Positions 17,158 to 25,226 of a stretch of 63,826 bases of DNA are shown here, in pieces. The notes beneath the pieces were generated by a model. It was not told the origin of the DNA. It saw only the letters and a list, made by a program, of their open reading frames with translations, and searched no databases. The stretch lies in the NCBI GenBank assembly GCA_947446025.1, contig CANFEY010000021.1, positions 1 to 63,826 on the forward strand, read 5' to 3'. The stretch's first letter is position 1. Every line of letters begins with the position of its first letter. The DNA is from Bryobacterales bacterium (lineage in GTDB: Bacteria > Acidobacteriota > Terriglobia > Bryobacterales > Bryobacteraceae). The position numbers and the translations under genes are program-made.

Positions 17158-18177
17158 ATGAAGACTCTACTACTCGCCGCCTCGCTGTGCGTGATGCCGT
17201 TGTGGGCCCAGGCTCCACCCGCGCCTGCTAAACCCAAGCCCACCCCTCCGCCCGCGCGGATTCGCGAGTTCAAGGCCTCGCGCGCCACGCTGCAAGCCGG
17301 CCAATCCACAACGCTGTCCTGGCAGGTGGAGAACCCCACTACGACAACGCTGAGCAGCGTCGGCTCGGTCGCCGCCATCGGCAATCGGACCGTTGCTCCC
17401 TCGGCAACCACCACTTACACATTGACGGTGCGCGGGGCGAACGGCGAAGAGTCGCGGTCTTTGACCGTCACAATTCCGGGCACGACGCCCGTCACCGCGG
17501 CAGCCGCCGAAGCTCCCAAGGGCATCCCTCGTATGCCCGACGGCAAGCCTGACCTCTCCGGCATCTACAATCCGGGTTCGTTCTCGCAGATGTTTGGCGG
17601 TCGTCAGACCCGTGGTGAGAACACGCCCTTCACCGGCAAGCTGAAACCCGGTGCCGAGAAATACAAGGTCGCCCGTGGTCCGAACGACGCAGGCCAGTAC
17701 GCGATGTGCTCGCCGACGGCGACGCCCGGAGCCTACTTCGTACCCTACCAGTGGCAAATCATCCAAGGCCGCGATTCCGTGGTCATCCTGTACGAGTATC
17801 CGCACCTGTTCCGCGCCATTCCCATCAGCACCGCCGCAAATCCGGTGGAACATCCCGAGGATCCCGATCCCACCTGGATGGGCAACTCCGTCGCGCACTG
17901 GGAAGGGGACACGCTTGTAGTGGACGTAGTCGGCTTCAACGAGAAGACCGAACTGCCCGGCGGCTTCCGTCATACCGAAGCCCTGCACGTGGTGGAACGC
18001 TTCACGCGTGTTGCCGATGACTTCCTGGAATGGACCGCGCGGGTGGAAGACCCCAACGTCTTCGTCGAACCCTGGACCATCTCGCGTGGATTCCCTCTGC
18101 GCACCGACCTGCAATCCATGTCCGAGTTCATCTGTGAAAATAACAAGGACTACAAAGATCTGTTCGAGAAGAAGTAG
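17158..18177 (+). CDS. Secreted protein: Ig-like domain plus W-E-G-D-T-L-V-V-D family domain
   Basis: 339 aa from the ATG at 17158 (signal peptide 1-18, cleavage after LWAQA). After a Pro/Lys linker comes an Ig-like module of about 80 residues (TLQAGQSTTLSWQVENP, TTTYTLTVRG), closely similar to repeats in the 3834 surface protein. From about residue 130 follows the conserved domain: PDGKPDLSGIYN, CSPTATPGAYFVPYQWQIIQ, DPDPTWMGNSVAHWEGDTLV, HTEALHVVERFTR, EDPNVFVEPWTI. This family is abundant in soil Acidobacteria and has no function I can name; it is probably periplasmic or outer-surface. First gene of a four-gene unit ending at 19809. Confidence 0.85.
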   Translation: MKTLLLAASLCVMPLWAQAPPAPAKPKPTPPPARIREFKASRATLQAGQSTTLSWQVENPTTTTLSSVGSVAAIGNRTVAPSATTTYTLTVRGANGEESRSLTVTIPGTTPVTAAAAEAPKGIPRMPDGKPDLSGIYNPGSFSQMFGGRQTRGENTPFTGKLKPGAEKYKVARGPNDAGQYAMCSPTATPGAYFVPYQWQIIQGRDSVVILYEYPHLFRAIPISTAANPVEHPEDPDPTWMGNSVAHWEGDTLVVDVVGFNEKTELPGGFRHTEALHVVERFTRVADDFLEWTARVEDPNVFVEPWTISRGFPLRTDLQSMSEFICENNKDYKDLFEKK

Positions 18178-18186
18178 GAGCCGCCG

Positions 18187-19158
18187 ATGAGAACCCTTTC
18201 CCTTGCTGTGTTTTGTGCCGCGACCATGTTCGCGCAAGCCCCGCCCGCCGCGGCTCCCGCCAAACCCGCGCGCATCCAGCCGCCCGCGCGCATTGCGGAG
18301 TTCCGTGCGCAGCCCGCCTCGGTGCAGGCCGGACAACCCGTGCTGCTCATTTGGGCGACGGAGAATCCCAGCAGTACCACGATTGCCCCGCAGCCCGGCC
18401 GTGTGACGCCGCGCGGCAGCCAGGCCGTCACGCCCACGACGACCACCACGTACACGCTGACCGTCACCGGTCCGAACAATCAGACCGAGACGCGCACGCT
18501 CACGGTGAACGTCACCGGCTCGGCCGCCCCTGTCGCCACGGCGGCGGTCAAGCGTCCCGACCTTTCCGGCGTCTACAATTTCGGCGGCGGTGGCGGCCGC
18601 GGCGCTGCGGCAGCCCCGGCAGGCCCTGAGCTCAAGCCCGGCAAAGAAAGCTACCGCGTGGTGCGCGGACCCAATGACGCCGGTTACCTCTCCGATTGCA
18701 TGCCAGTCGCCGGCCCCGCTGCCTACGGTGTGCCCTATCCGTTCCAGATCATCCAGAATGACAAGTACGTCGTCATCTTCCACGAATACCCCGGCACCTT
18801 CCGCATCATCAACACCGACGGCGGCATCCATTCGGTGGACCCGGATCCCACCTGGCTGGGCGAGGCCATCGGCAAGTGGGAAGGCGACACCTTTGTGGTC
18901 GACACCATCGGCTTCAACACCCGCACGGAGCTGAACGGCTTTAAGCATTCTGAAGCGCTCCACATCGTGGAGAAGTTCCGCAAGCCGACGCCGGACGCGC
19001 TGGAGTATGAAGCCACCCTCGAAGACCCCGAAGTCTTCGTCCGCCCATGGGTCGTCACCCGCACGTTCTCCCTCCGCCCCGATCTCAAGAAGGTGGATGA
19101 GTTCGTGTGCGAGAACAACAAGGACTACAAAGAGCTGTTCGTAACTCCGGCGAAGTGA
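18187..19158 (+). CDS. Secreted paralogue: Ig-like domain plus W-E-G-D-T family domain
   Basis: 323 aa, starting 9 bp after the previous gene and built the same way: signal peptide 1-19, Ig-like module (SVQAGQPVLLIWATENP, TTTYTLTVTG), a Gly/Ala linker, then the family domain (RPDLSGVYNF, DCMPVAGPAAYGVPYPFQII, DPDPTWLGEAIGKWEGDTFV, HSEALHIVEKFRK, EDPEVFVRPWVV, ENNKDYKELF). Clearly a tandem duplicate of 17158-18177, but diverged. Its TGA overlaps the GTG of the following membrane protein. Confidence 0.85.
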   Translation: MRTLSLAVFCAATMFAQAPPAAAPAKPARIQPPARIAEFRAQPASVQAGQPVLLIWATENPSSTTIAPQPGRVTPRGSQAVTPTTTTTYTLTVTGPNNQTETRTLTVNVTGSAAPVATAAVKRPDLSGVYNFGGGGGRGAAAAPAGPELKPGKESYRVVRGPNDAGYLSDCMPVAGPAAYGVPYPFQIIQNDKYVVIFHEYPGTFRIINTDGGIHSVDPDPTWLGEAIGKWEGDTFVVDTIGFNTRTELNGFKHSEALHIVEKFRKPTPDALEYEATLEDPEVFVRPWVVTRTFSLRPDLKKVDEFVCENNKDYKELFVTPAK

Positions 19159-19511
19159 TCGAGAATACCTGGATCTTCCCCACCCTGGAAGCGCTGCATG
19201 TCATCGGCCTGGCGCTGCTGGTGGGGAACATCGTGCTGGGCGATCTACGCGTGCTCGGCTGGAGCACCGCGCTGCCTTCGCAACGCATGCAGGAAGCCGG
19301 CTTCTGGCTGATGGTGCTCACCGGGCTGCCGATGTTCGCATCCGGCTTTGAGCGGTATCGCGAGAATCCCGCCTTTTGGGTGAAAATCGCCCTGCTCGCC
19401 GTGGCCTTGGCCATTCCCAAGCGCAGCACGCGCGCTCACGCCGTGCTGTCCCTGGTGGTGTGGACGCTGACGGTGGTTGCGGCCAGAGCGGTGATCGACT
19501 TCGATGCCTGA
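19155..19511 (+). CDS. Small integral membrane protein (DUF6644-like)
   Basis: 118 aa from a GTG that overlaps the preceding stop as GTGA. Three or four predicted helices: FPTLEALHVIGLALLVGNIVL, GFWLMVLTGLPMFASG, FWVKIALLAVALAI and VLSLVVWTLTVVAARA. The pattern E-x-L-H-x-x-G-L-A-L-L with a membrane-embedded histidine resembles DUF6644-type proteins, an uncertain assignment. Translational coupling ties it to the two secreted proteins upstream. Confidence 0.75.
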   Translation: MIENTWIFPTLEALHVIGLALLVGNIVLGDLRVLGWSTALPSQRMQEAGFWLMVLTGLPMFASGFERYRENPAFWVKIALLAVALAIPKRSTRAHAVLSLVVWTLTVVAARAVIDFDA

Positions 19512-19809
19512 GTGGATCGACATCTGGTATCAGCCCGCCCTGGGCGCGCTCCACGTGCTCGGGCTCGCCTGGTTCGGGGCCAGCTTGTGGACCGACGCAC
19601 CCAAGCTACGCCGCATCGGTCTAGTGTGGCTGCTGGCGACCGGCGCACTGCTGTTCGCGGTCAATGCGGACCGCGTCTTCGCCAGTACGGCCTTCCGCGT
19701 CAAGCTAGCTCTGCTCATTCCGGCAGTGCTCGTGACCAAACCCCGCTGGCTGGTCTGGACCCTATGGGCTGCGGTCGTGTTCGCCTCGCGCGGCATAGCC
19801 TACTTTTGA
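19504..19809 (+). CDS. Small integral membrane protein, related to its upstream neighbour
   Basis: 101 aa, overlapping the previous gene by 8 bp. Predicted helices: ALGALHVLGLAWFGASLW, IGLVWLLATGALLFAV, FRVKLALLIPAVLV and LVWTLWAAVVFASRGIAYF. LHVLGLAWFG and AFRVKLALL mirror the neighbour, so the two may form a heteromeric membrane unit. Histidine in the first helix is shared. Function unknown. The gene ends 10 bp inside the convergent glycosidase gene. Confidence 0.75.
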   Translation: MPEWIDIWYQPALGALHVLGLAWFGASLWTDAPKLRRIGLVWLLATGALLFAVNADRVFASTAFRVKLALLIPAVLVTKPRWLVWTLWAAVVFASRGIAYF

Positions 19810-21396: not shown

Positions 21397-21801
21397 ATGC
21401 GAATTTTCAGATATCTGAAGTGGTCCCCGGCTGTGTTCGCCCTGGCTGCGATCCTGCCCATGGCGGCCCAAGAAGGCTACCCGCTGAAGGGTTCATGGAT
21501 TGGTGAATGGTCCGCAAACGCCACCCATGGCAATGACATCATCCTGGTCATGAACTGGGACGGCAAAGCCGTCTCCGGCATCATCAACCCCGGGACCGAC
21601 AACATCAAGATTGACAAAGCCACGCTCGACCCGGCTGGCTGGAAGGTCCACATCGAAGCCGATGCGAAGGACAAAGCAGGTGCCGCGATCCGCTACGTCA
21701 TTGACGGTGCCATCGGGCAGCTGGAAATGGCGAATCGCACCATCACCGGGACTTGGTCCAGCCAAAAGGGCAAGGGCAAGTTTGAGATCCGCAGGCAGTA
21801 G
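21397..21801 (+). CDS. Small secreted protein of unknown function
   Basis: 134 aa from the ATG at 21397. Signal peptide about 1-25 (AVFALAAILPMAAQ), then a beta-rich domain beginning GYPLKGSWIGEWSAN, with NDIILVMNWDGKAVSGIINPG and GTWSSQKGKGKFEIRRQ. The alternation and the G-x-W-x-G-x-W opening suggest a small beta-barrel or lipocalin-like fold, but I do not recognise a family. First gene of the operon with the DUF6152 and W-E-G-D-T proteins (2 bp gap to the next). Confidence 0.75.
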   Translation: MRIFRYLKWSPAVFALAAILPMAAQEGYPLKGSWIGEWSANATHGNDIILVMNWDGKAVSGIINPGTDNIKIDKATLDPAGWKVHIEADAKDKAGAAIRYVIDGAIGQLEMANRTITGTWSSQKGKGKFEIRRQ

Positions 21802-21803
21802 CT

Positions 21804-22955
21804 ATGAAGAACAATCTGGTAAGCAGGAATCTTGCCGTGGGCGCGCTTGGGTTAGCAGCGTTCCTATGGGCGGCCTCCGCCTGGGCCCATCACTCCATCT
21901 CGGGTAAGTTCAACACCACCGCCGCGAAGACCACCTTGGTCGGCGTCGTCACCAGTGTGGATTGGCGTAACCCGCACGTCCACGTTTTCATGAACGTGAA
22001 GACGGCCGGACAGGCCAAAGCCGGAGCCCAGATCCTCAATTGGGCCGTGGAACTGGAAAGCCCCAGCATTCTCGAAATGGAAGGCCACAATCGCAACACG
22101 CTCCACGTGGGCGCGGCCATCACCGTTCGCGGCAGCCGGGCTCGCGACAACTCCCGCCAGCTGTGGGGAGAAGACGTGCGCTTCACGGTCGACCAAAGCC
22201 TGGTCTTCCCTCCCAAGGTCAAGTTACCGCGGAATCCGACCAACTCCCGCGCCACCCCCACCTGGCCCGACGGTCAGCCTGCCCTCGGTCAGGCTCCCGG
22301 CGCAGCCGATGGCTTCTGGACTGACCCCAGCGAAACCGCCCTGGTGGAAGACGGCGTCACCGTCGCCATGGACGAATACGGCGTGCTCGCGAATCCCGCC
22401 GATGCCGCCAAGGTTGCACCGATGCAGCCCTGGGCACTGGGCGTCTATCAATACCGTCAGAGCCGCCAACTGCGCGATGACCCCACCTACGTAAACTGCA
22501 AGCCCCCGGGCGGACCTCGGATGTACCAGTCGCGCTTGGGCGTTCAACTGGTGGAAGACCGCGAACGGAAGCGGATTTTCGTGCTGATGGGAAGCGGAAA
22601 TCACAACTACCGCATCATCTACCTGGACGGACGCAAGCAGGTCGGTCTGCAAGGTGGCGATGACGACAATCCACTCTACTTCGGGCGTTCCGCGGGCAAG
22701 TGGGAAGGCAAGACCCTGGTAGTGGATACCATTGACTTCAATGAAGACTTCTGGTTTACTCAGGGCGGGTTGCCTCACACTGGCCAGTTGCATATGATCG
22801 AACGCTTTACGCGCACCGACTACGATACGCTTCGCTACGAAGTCCAGATCGACGACGCCGGGGCTTATACTAGAAATTGGTCCGCTAGTTGGACTTTGAA
22901 GTGGAACGGTGGCGGTGCTTTGCCGTCGCATTTCTGCCAGAATAACAGACAGTAA
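21804..22955 (+). CDS. Secreted fusion protein: DUF6152-like domain plus W-E-G-D-T family domain
   Basis: 383 aa. Signal peptide 1-28 ending AASAWA, so that the mature protein should begin HHSISGKF. Residues about 29-140 match the DUF6152-type domain (GVVTSVDWRNPHVHVFMNV, AITVRGSRARDN). The rest is the W-E-G-D-T domain: CKPPGGPRMYQSRLGVQLVE, IIYLDGRKQVG, SAGKWEGKTLVVDTIDFNED, HTGQLHMIERFTRTD, DDAGAYTRNWS. The two parts occur as separate proteins in the next two genes, so this fusion links them functionally. Both neighbours are within 16 bp. Confidence 0.83.
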   Translation: MKNNLVSRNLAVGALGLAAFLWAASAWAHHSISGKFNTTAAKTTLVGVVTSVDWRNPHVHVFMNVKTAGQAKAGAQILNWAVELESPSILEMEGHNRNTLHVGAAITVRGSRARDNSRQLWGEDVRFTVDQSLVFPPKVKLPRNPTNSRATPTWPDGQPALGQAPGAADGFWTDPSETALVEDGVTVAMDEYGVLANPADAAKVAPMQPWALGVYQYRQSRQLRDDPTYVNCKPPGGPRMYQSRLGVQLVEDRERKRIFVLMGSGNHNYRIIYLDGRKQVGLQGGDDDNPLYFGRSAGKWEGKTLVVDTIDFNEDFWFTQGGLPHTGQLHMIERFTRTDYDTLRYEVQIDDAGAYTRNWSASWTLKWNGGGALPSHFCQNNRQ

Positions 22956-22970
22956 AAGGAGAACAACAAA

Positions 22971-23393
22971 ATGAAACATTTTATCGCATTTGGATTAATT
23001 CTCGCTGGTGTGCTGGTGGGCACGCAGTCAGCCACGGCTCATCATTCCTTCTCGGCGGAATTCGACCGCAACAAGCCGATCAAGCTGGAAGGCGTGGTCA
23101 CCAAGGTCGAATGGACCAATCCGCACGTCTGGATCTACATCAACGTGAAGGATGCCAATGGCAAGGTCACGAACTGGGGAGCCGAGCTCGGTCCGCCGCA
23201 CGGTTTGCAGGGTGGTGGCTGGCGCCGTGACACCTTGAAAATCGGCGATGTCATCAGCTTGAATGGTTCCTTGGCGAAGAACGGCACCTCGCGCGTAAAC
23301 GCGGGCAACGTCACGTTGGCAGGAACCGGTGGCCGTCCGGGTGCGACCCTGGATGCCGCTTCGTCCGGCAAGCAAGAAGAAAAAGGCAAATAA
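22971..23393 (+). CDS. DUF6152 family secreted protein
   Basis: 140 aa with a good Shine-Dalgarno (AAAAGGAG). Signal peptide 1-23 ends SATA, placing HHSFSAEFDRNKPIKLEG at the mature N-terminus. The domain carries VVTKVEWTNPHVWIYINV, the family hallmark, and reads as an OB-like beta-barrel. A C-terminal low-complexity tail ends in Lys/Glu. Function unknown. The invariant His-His at the predicted mature end could bind a metal, which is inference. It sits between the fusion protein and a stand-alone W-E-G-D-T protein. Confidence 0.87.
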   Translation: MKHFIAFGLILAGVLVGTQSATAHHSFSAEFDRNKPIKLEGVVTKVEWTNPHVWIYINVKDANGKVTNWGAELGPPHGLQGGGWRRDTLKIGDVISLNGSLAKNGTSRVNAGNVTLAGTGGRPGATLDAASSGKQEEKGK

Positions 23394-23399
23394 GAAACG

Positions 23400-24266
23400 A
23401 TGCGTCGAACCATAATCGCAATCGCCGCAGCTGCGGTGCTGAGCCTGCTGGTGATGACTGCTGGCGCTCAGCAACCGGCTGGCGCCGCCAAAGGCAAAGG
23501 CGGCGGTGGGGCTAACGCGAATAAGGGTGGCGGCGGTGGAGCCAATAAGGGCAAGGCGGCAGCTCCCGCCGCGCCCACTCCCCGAAACGCTAGCGGCAAG
23601 GTCCTTTTTGGCGGCGAAGTTGCCGGCAAGAACGGCGTTTGGACGCCCGTGTTCAGCCTCACAGCCCCGGCTGCACCCTATGAAACCGTATCCTTCCAGC
23701 CGTGGGCGAAAGCCCTGTATGACGAGCGGCAGAAGCACGAACTGGAGCCGCACGCACGCTGCAAAGCCTCCGGCGTAACCCGGCAGTTCCTCACTCCCTA
23801 CGGTGTGGAATTCACCATGATCCCGGAACTCCAGCGAGTATTCATTTTCGACATCGGCGGTCCGCACACCTTCCGCACCATTTACATGGACGGTCGTTCG
23901 CACCCCGACAACATCTCACCCTCCAACTACGGCCATTCCATCGGCTGGTGGGAAGGTGACACCTTGGTAGTCGATTCGGTCGGCTATAACGAAGACTTCT
24001 GGCTTGACCGCCGTGGTCTTCCGCACACCGAACAGCTCCACACCATCGAACGCTTCACCCGGACCGACAAGACCACCATCGAGTACAAGATTACGGTCGA
24101 CGATCCGGGCGCATACACCGCCCCGTACGACGGGGGCTTCAACCTCCGTTACAACGAAAACCAGGAACTCTTCGAATACGTTTGCCAACAGGCGAACTAC
24201 GCGCATGAGTTGATGGTGGGCGGCGAATCGCGGGTCATCTCGCGTAGCAGCCAAATCGTTCCGTAA
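23400..24266 (+). CDS. Secreted W-E-G-D-T family protein
   Basis: 288 aa, 6 bp after the DUF6152 gene. Signal peptide 1-23 (cleavage after AGA), a Gly/Lys-rich linker at about 28-60, then the conserved domain: WAKALYDERQKHELEPHARC, GVTRQFLTPYGVEFTMIPEL, IGGPHTFRTIYMDGRSHP, SIGWWEGDTLVVDSVGYNED, HTEQLHTIERFTRTD, DDPGAYTAPYDGGFNLRY. Near-duplicate of 24402-25226. Last gene of the operon, followed by a strong terminator. Function unknown; probably periplasmic. Confidence 0.85.
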   Translation: MRRTIIAIAAAAVLSLLVMTAGAQQPAGAAKGKGGGGANANKGGGGGANKGKAAAPAAPTPRNASGKVLFGGEVAGKNGVWTPVFSLTAPAAPYETVSFQPWAKALYDERQKHELEPHARCKASGVTRQFLTPYGVEFTMIPELQRVFIFDIGGPHTFRTIYMDGRSHPDNISPSNYGHSIGWWEGDTLVVDSVGYNEDFWLDRRGLPHTEQLHTIERFTRTDKTTIEYKITVDDPGAYTAPYDGGFNLRYNENQELFEYVCQQANYAHELMVGGESRVISRSSQIVP

Positions 24267-24401: not shown

Positions 24402-25226
24402 ATGCGTCGAACCATATTCACGATTGCTGCCGCCGCTGCGCTGAGCATGCTGGTGATGACCGCCGGAGCCCAGCAGCAAGGTGCCGCCAAGGGCGGTGGT
24501 GGCAATAGGGGTAAAGAGGCCCCTCCCGCCGGACCCGCTGCCCGCAATGCCAGCGGCAGAGTCCTTCTTGGCGGCGACGTTCCCGGAAAGAACGGCGTCT
24601 GGCTCCCCGGCATCGGCACCCAAGTCCCCGCTGCGAAGCTGGAGGACGTGAAGTTCCAACCGTGGGCCAAGGCGCTCTACGACGAACGCCAGAAGCATGA
24701 ATTGGAACCCCACGCTCGCTGCAAAGCCTCGGGCACTTCGCGCCAGTTCCTCACGCCCTACGGCGTCGAGTTCACCGAAATCCCCGAACTCCAGCGCATC
24801 TTTATCTTCGACATCGGCGGCCCCCACACCTTCCGCACTATCTACATGGACGGCCGCTCGCATCCCGACAACATCTCCCCCAGCAACTACGGCCATTCCA
24901 TCGGCTGGTGGGAAGGCGACACGCTAGTGGTCGACTCCGTCGGCTTCAACGAGGACTTCTGGTGGGACCGCCGCGGCCTGCCGCACACCGAGCAATTGCA
25001 CACCATCGAGCGCTTCATCCGCACCAACAAGACCAACATTGATTACACAATCACCATCGACGATCCGGGTGCCTACACGGCTCCCTACGTGGGCGGCTTC
25101 AACCTACGCTACAACGAAAACCAGGAGCTCTTCGAATACGTTTGCCAGCAGGCCAACTACGCGCATGAGCTGATGGTGGGCGGCGAATCGCGAGTCATCT
25201 CGCGCAGCAGCCAAATCGTTCCGTAG
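24402..25226 (+). CDS. Secreted W-E-G-D-T family protein, recent duplicate
   Basis: 274 aa from the ATG at 24402; the frame is open further upstream across the promoter, which is not coding. Signal peptide 1-23, a shorter Gly/Lys linker, then a domain nearly identical to that of 23400-24266, including the whole C-terminal stretch from NLRYNENQELFEYVCQQANY to SRSSQIVP. Differences cluster in the linker and in the segment before WAKALYDERQ. The duplication includes the terminator that follows, and the new copy has its own promoter. Confidence 0.85.
   Translation: MRRTIFTIAAAAALSMLVMTAGAQQQGAAKGGGGNRGKEAPPAGPAARNASGRVLLGGDVPGKNGVWLPGIGTQVPAAKLEDVKFQPWAKALYDERQKHELEPHARCKASGTSRQFLTPYGVEFTEIPELQRIFIFDIGGPHTFRTIYMDGRSHPDNISPSNYGHSIGWWEGDTLVVDSVGFNEDFWWDRRGLPHTEQLHTIERFIRTNKTNIDYTITIDDPGAYTAPYVGGFNLRYNENQELFEYVCQQANYAHELMVGGESRVISRSSQIVP

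Follow-up and report, generated by a model that had tools for sequence, protein, structure and literature searches.

In a Bryobacterales bacterium (GCA_947446025.1), one gene encodes in a single polypeptide two secreted domains that the next two genes encode separately, which raises the question of what these two protein families do together. The gene lies in a stretch of 63,826 nucleotides (contig CANFEY010000021.1) that was analysed as a whole and is referred to here as the window. The genome of the window (own genome, G000) comprises 4.43 Mb in 120 contigs. The first domain belongs to DUF6152 (PF19649; hereafter D), described in Pfam as a family of unknown function, and the second is an unnamed W-E-G-D-T domain (hereafter W). 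The best reading of the analysis is that D and W constitute a much duplicated module that is new in its scaffold and in its partner. With a probability of roughly 60%, this is a two-part secreted metalloprotein module, in which D carries a site of the histidine-brace type and W is its partner.

Organization of the locus

The fusion gene is part of a run of five consecutive genes on the plus strand, which starts with a member of a small secreted-protein family (f2), continues with the fusion and a stand-alone D and ends with two W genes. The features of the locus are the following:

17194-18177, plus strand: W protein with an N-terminal extension (W profile, 186 bits at 17635-18165)
18187-19158, plus strand: W protein with an N-terminal extension (W profile, 277 bits at 18607-19149; this protein is one of the four rows from which the profile was built)
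21397-21801, plus strand: small secreted protein, f2, 134 aa; first gene of the cassette, stopping 3 bp upstream of the fusion
21804-22955, plus strand: D-W fusion gene, 383 aa (PF19649 match and identity of the W half)
21804-21887, plus strand: apparent signal peptide of the fusion protein, 28 aa, with the end AWA (from the sequence)
21888-21893, plus strand: His1-His2 of the predicted mature fusion protein (from the sequence)
21969-21977, plus strand: NPH motif, with the third His, of the fusion protein (from the sequence)
22971-23393, plus strand: stand-alone D protein (DUF6152), 140 aa (PF19649 match)
23040-23045, plus strand: His1-His2 of the predicted mature stand-alone D (from the sequence)
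23118-23126, plus strand: NPH motif of the stand-alone D (His29 in mature numbering; invariant in a 47-row alignment)
23400-24266, plus strand: stand-alone W protein, 288 aa (conserved W columns)
24402-25226, plus strand: second W protein, a tandem copy, 274 aa (85% identity to 23400-24266)

Both D proteins are members of DUF6152 by the curated Pfam cut-off of 27 bits, with 63 bits at residues 23-118 of the fusion and 99.9 bits for the stand-alone D. The C-terminal part of the fusion shares 41% identity with the W protein of 23400-24266 over 185 aa (E 7e-48), and its N-terminal part shares 36% identity with the D protein of 22971-23393 over 111 aa. The fusion of D and W at 21804, with both domains separate in the next two genes, had been proposed from the DNA alone and is confirmed, as the coordinates are right and both halves match the neighbours. 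The f2 protein has no Pfam match. Further upstream, the protein of 17194-18177 has a weak Pfam match to PKD (E 0.036), and downstream of the two W genes with N-terminal extensions, two small membrane proteins are encoded at 19107-19809, the first of which has weak matches to DUF2214 and DUF6644, under the cut-off.

D and W as one system

In the own genome, 52 D matches (PF19649) and, using the profile from four window rows, 100 W matches were found. Two of the 52 D matches contain internal stops and are apparently decayed copies (G000:C88:9356-9502 and G000:C84:12439-12549). A W is located within 1 kb of 40 of the 52 D (39 on the same strand), where about 3.2 are expected by chance, and conversely 44 of the 100 W lie this close to a D; the remaining 12 D and 56 W are without such a neighbour.

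The two families also co-occur at the level of genomes. Among 297 Acidobacteriota genomes, for which 90% completeness was asked, D was found in at least 42 and W in at least 40; both are present in 40, only D in two (G155 and G252), only W in none and neither in 255, with the best 16 D and best 10 W candidates scored per genome, so that some absences may be misses and copies are uncounted. The Fisher test gives p 1e-47 if the genomes are independent; by genus, D is present in at least 22 and W in at least 20 of 167, and the effective sample is smaller than 297. Among the best candidates scored, every genome with W also has D (40/40), so that a lack of co-occurrence, which would have refuted the original prediction, was not seen.

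In addition, the pairwise identities of D proteins correlate with those of the adjacent W proteins, with r 0.62 over 36 own-genome pairs and r 0.74 over 103 pairs, and the identities of the D and W halves of 21 fusions correlate with r 0.75 (0/1000 shuffles in each of the three cases). Such correlated divergence is predicted by co-duplication and by physical interaction alike. The proposal that the two families act together is thus supported by fusion, adjacency, genome co-occurrence and correlated divergence, and D and W can be considered one system with fair certainty. In this way, two families without known function, which together account for about 150 gene matches in a single soil-bacterium genome of 4.4 Mb, are tied together.

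Fusions in other genomes

Relatives were collected by a contig scan, in which at least 558 of the 579 stretches listed encode relatives and the best 80 loci were kept. These 80 loci come from metagenome-assembled genomes (MAGs) whose titles name Acidobacteria or groups within it, Gammaproteobacteria and a few other taxa; the taxon names used here are taken from these titles. Together with 40 own-genome stretches and the window they make up 121 regions, which were annotated with our own gene caller (recovering 48 of the 52 own-genome D) and two HMMs. The regions contain 159 D genes and 185 W genes, with 21 fusions among them, including three in the own genome.

D-W fusions occur in MAGs of both Acidobacteriota and Gammaproteobacteria, and the gene order f2, fusion, D and W recurs, by eye, across the fusion maps. 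A D gene directly follows the fusion in 20 of the 21 maps, and in L103 an uncalled D match lies at that place. The f2 gene is found upstream of the fusion in 16 of the 21 maps and only downstream in two more, and in five of the 21 a gene for a small putative cytochrome c (f20) lies between f2 and the fusion (all by eye). When one f20 copy was run through Pfam, its matches were all under the curated cut-offs; four of the five f20 N-termini show CxxCH.

The D halves of all 21 fusions group in one pure clade (support 0.92). The W halves likewise group together (support 0.993), with two stand-alone W proteins as intruders in their clade. Since each half forms one clade, a single origin of the fusion is most likely, after which it would have spread or been inherited across phyla. 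The two intruders (L145:7036-7896 and L131:7292-7912) look as if their D part has been lost.

The N-terminal histidines of D

Both D proteins of the window start with a charged and then a hydrophobic segment, with Ala immediately before His-His (AWA/HH and ATA/HH, the slash marking the predicted cleavage). In the own genome, 51 of the 52 D frames, with start codons chosen by script, place HH after 14-30 residues. The residue at -1 in these 51 is Ala in 49, Ser in one and Gly in one; K or R is present within residues 2-9 in 50, and a hydrophobic window in all 51. An alignment of 47 D proteins with 25-50% identity to the first row has the invariant columns Met1, His24, His25, Asn50, Pro51, His52 and Gly92.

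Across the 121 regions, all three His (His1, His2 and the NPH His) are present in 157 of the 159 D proteins. The 80 loci were located by patterns containing HH or NPH, and the 39 D proteins other than the seed-pattern match of their locus were hence counted apart; 38 of these carry all three His. HH before NPH was also observed in 40 out of 40 D proteins from 35 Acidobacteriota genomes, picked by us among the high-scoring matches listed, with Ala at -1 in 39 and Gly in one. With called starts, [AGS]HH at positions 15-36 is found in 128 of the 159 D proteins versus 7 of 1430 non-D proteins of the same regions; the number is 128 and not 157 because the gene starts come from our own caller. For comparison, His is the first mature residue in about 2.6% of the signal-peptide proteins in the SignalP 6 training set, according to the accessible text of PMC12537917.

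D can thus be described as a family of secreted proteins with a conserved His at +1, where the cleavage before His1 is predicted from the register of Ala at -1. In nearly every homologue examined the mature protein would start with His-His, and the refuting outcome named with the original prediction, cleavage sites of homologues that do not fall before the His pair, did not occur. The window copies of W, on the other hand, have by eye the apparent processing GA/QQ without an exposed His, and only the D family shows the N-terminal His. 

It could be argued that D and W have no metal function and serve as lineage-specific binding proteins of the surface or periplasm, with HH as an accident of the signal-peptidase context. 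Such proteins could show a large expansion and a patchy spread (at least 42 of 297 genomes), as seen here. However, HH persists among D proteins that share 25-50% identity and have little else in common, and where HH is lost the NPH His is lost as well; this explanation is considered highly improbable.

The joint loss is seen in the two exceptions among the 159 D proteins, which have QRS and QPR at the three His positions and are both fusions (L057:12073-13188 from the own genome and L101:6121-7431). In these proteins His1 is replaced by Gln and the NPH His is gone, and the signal-peptide end A/Q is retained, so that they can serve as natural loss-of-site controls. They have different nearest neighbours in the tree, and their smallest joint clade, of 21 tips, is the fusion clade; two separate complete losses of the three His are the simpler reading. 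That all three His disappear together in both proteins suggests that they belong to a single site, which would most probably hold a transition metal. Both proteins retain the Glu of the W-x-x-E motif despite the loss of the His residues, which argues against this Glu as a ligand. That the two fusions are still kept as genes counts against a reading of the family based on this site.

Predicted fold of D and the candidate metal site

AF2 models were obtained for the mature stand-alone D (pLDDT 85.8) and the mature fusion (pLDDT 90.9, pTM 0.86). In Foldseek, the D model matches the OB-fold proteins LysRS, PriB and SSB with probability 1.00, a best E of 2.6e-3 and a query TM of about 0.5; for D alone there was no match at E <= 1e-3. 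The fusion model reaches a best E of 7.3e-4 and a target TM of 0.72 to PriB. The 50 matches that Foldseek listed for D are to OB-type proteins, which in our reading are matched by their OB parts, and the D fold is predicted to be an OB barrel. Sequence searches with D or with W gave no credible relative in the PDB.

Covariation in D was calculated from 199 sequences (effective 114). The top pair is Glu7-Asn87 (5.2 sd), and Glu7 also pairs with Tyr33 (4.0) and Trp31 (3.1), which suggests that the N-terminal helix packs against the strand starting directly after His29. Like the joint loss of the three His, these pairs indirectly favour a clustering of the putative ligands, with His29 near enough to His1 for coordination. 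The pairs H2-H29 (4.3) and H1-H29 (4.2) both rest on the two site-loss sequences, and some near-invariant columns also covary with Gly69, for example H1-G69.

We propose that D and W are two parts of a periplasmic or extracellular metalloprotein module. Signal peptidase would expose His1-His2 of the small OB-fold protein D, and the amino group, His1 and His29 (of NPH) would together form one transition-metal site of the histidine-brace type, with His2 as a further or neighbouring ligand and W as the partner of D. Binding of a transition metal by D at His1, His2 and His29 is judged likely; that this metal is copper is guessed from the histidine braces already described. We know of no OB fold that serves as the scaffold for a histidine brace. 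If the proposal is true, such a metal site has arisen on another scaffold.

The three His could also hold haem, take part in acid-base chemistry without a metal or form part of a protein interface. For haem, there are the small putative cytochrome c genes in five of the 21 cassettes and the precedent of CcmE, a periplasmic haem carrier with an OB fold. These alternatives are nevertheless unlikely, as the His stands exactly at the processed N-terminus, where a free amine can chelate, and the three His are lost jointly; a haem ligand or an interface would presumably not need the register of Ala at -1 and His at +1.

Comparison with known N-terminal-histidine and OB-fold proteins

The likeness to CopC and LPMOs, which was part of the original prediction, is not upheld, as the D model has an OB fold, with His1, His2 and His29 as the conserved His residues. 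As far as the accessible sources go, CopC and LPMOs (AA9/AA10) resemble D in having an exposed N-terminal His and an internal conserved His. CopC and LPMOs have an Ig-like fold, and the predicted fold of D is different. Membership of CopC was rejected on the absence of a Pfam match at E <= 10, and membership of the LPMOs (AA9/AA10) on the absence of a Pfam or PDB profile match at E <= 10, in both cases together with the OB-type model of D. CusF is a periplasmic OB-fold copper protein with internal Met, His and Trp ligands and no N-terminal His. It resembles D, as proposed here, in being a small periplasmic OB fold that binds metal; CusF does not appear in the lists of 50 Foldseek matches obtained for D and for the fusion.

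The nearest case to D that we have read of, in the accessible text of PMC12537917, is DUF6702. Like D, this family is secreted, has an N-terminal His after signal cleavage and has three His, which are His1, His28 and His32 in DUF6702 versus His1, His2 and His29 in D. According to the same text, the model of DUF6702 is an Ig-like beta-sandwich, and 65% of the members of this family retain the N-terminal His, whereas D is predicted to be OB-like and retains it in 157 of 159. As far as that text goes, D also differs from DUF6702 in having a dedicated partner, W. The number 6152 does not occur in the main text of PMC12537917, which mentions several candidates and treats four; DUF6152 may be among the rest. 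A literature search that covered few subscription journals yielded no paper that describes DUF6152/PF19649, be it its N-terminal His, its fold or its W partner, and none that joins a histidine brace with an OB-fold. Nothing on secreted unknown families was found in the accessible text of the Solibacter genome-duplication paper (PMC3174227).

Genomic context and possible role

Near D and W, PQQ dehydrogenases, c-type cytochromes, large TonB/Oar-type receptors (by eye) and amidohydrolases recur. The own genome contains 84 PQQ-dehydrogenase matches, merged by hand to about 47 genes, ten of which span the whole PQQ model, and 109 receptor matches, merged by hand to about 59, which are kin of L132:118-3297 (TonB/Oar-like by eye), many of them on contig C19; in addition, 46 cytochrome matches were found. 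Closeness was tested in the own genome, with intervals clipped at the contig ends for 41 contigs. Within 5 kb of D, 4 of the 47 PQQ dehydrogenases are found versus 5.0 expected, which is no enrichment, and within 5 kb of D or W 14 of 47 versus 9.2 (p 0.06). For the receptors, 11 of 59 are within 5 kb of D versus 6.9 expected (p 0.08). An association with PQQ dehydrogenases and TonB/Oar-type receptors, as seen in the gene maps, is thus not significant in the own genome because both are so common there, and a redox or uptake role is without statistical support from the context.

Among the recurrent neighbours, of which eight families were run through Pfam, none was recognised as a transporter or regulator of metals. 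Clusters of DUF6644 membrane genes lie within about 3.3 kb of D in 3 of 9 cases in the own genome (p 0.03, post hoc), which makes these genes a lead as a third part of the system. At L065 and L072, D is followed by two DUF6644-family genes. DUF6644 is, as we assume, linked to CopD; an analogy to CopC-CopD through DUF6644 was set aside, as no CopD match appeared in Pfam.

These neighbours bear on the alternative that D is a chaperone for metal trafficking or sequestration, like CopC, DUF4198 and DUF6702, with W as the acceptor, with Cu, Ni, Co or Zn as the metal and without catalysis. According to the accessible text of PMC12537917, DUF4198 and DUF6702 are tight metal binders whose oxidase or peroxidase activity is weak or not significant, none of significance being reported for DUF6702, and the DUF6644 clusters near D could resemble CopC with a membrane partner. 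The numbers of about 50 D and 100 W in one genome, however, would be far above the need of metal homeostasis, the constant partner of D is W, and the neighbour families run through Pfam include no recognised metal transporter or regulator. A chaperone of this kind is considered possible but not probable.

In the preferred reading of D and W as a two-part metalloprotein module, we infer a catalytic or capture role. The approximately 40 pairs in this genome would be better explained by many organic compounds, each bound or oxidized as the target of its own pair, than by metal housekeeping. A more far-reaching version, which is speculative and rather doubtful, is that D is an OB-fold histidine-brace metalloenzyme and that D-W forms a massively duplicated extracytoplasmic system for copper-dependent oxidation in Acidobacteriota and some Gammaproteobacteria, in which W picks the substrate of each pair and the small cytochromes c are electron partners in some cassettes. 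If true, a large unexplained gene expansion of the Acidobacteriota gains a role.

The W domain

Searches with the stand-alone W proteins starting at 23400, 24402 and 18187 gave nothing in Pfam at E <= 10 or in NCBIfam at E <= 1, and of the 50 Foldseek matches listed for the fusion model none clearly corresponds to W. In the own-genome regions, the mean pairwise identity is 0.29 for W (n=60) versus 0.375 for D (n=45); being the more divergent half, W probably sets the target. Among 192 W domain rows, the conserved columns are Cys121 (185 of 186 letters), Cys262 (177 of 177), Gly178, Trp184, Glu217 and Asp235, and the two Cys perhaps form a disulphide. Six genes carry two W domains in tandem, including L058:7492-9054, L094:2004-3602 and L096:4477-6108.
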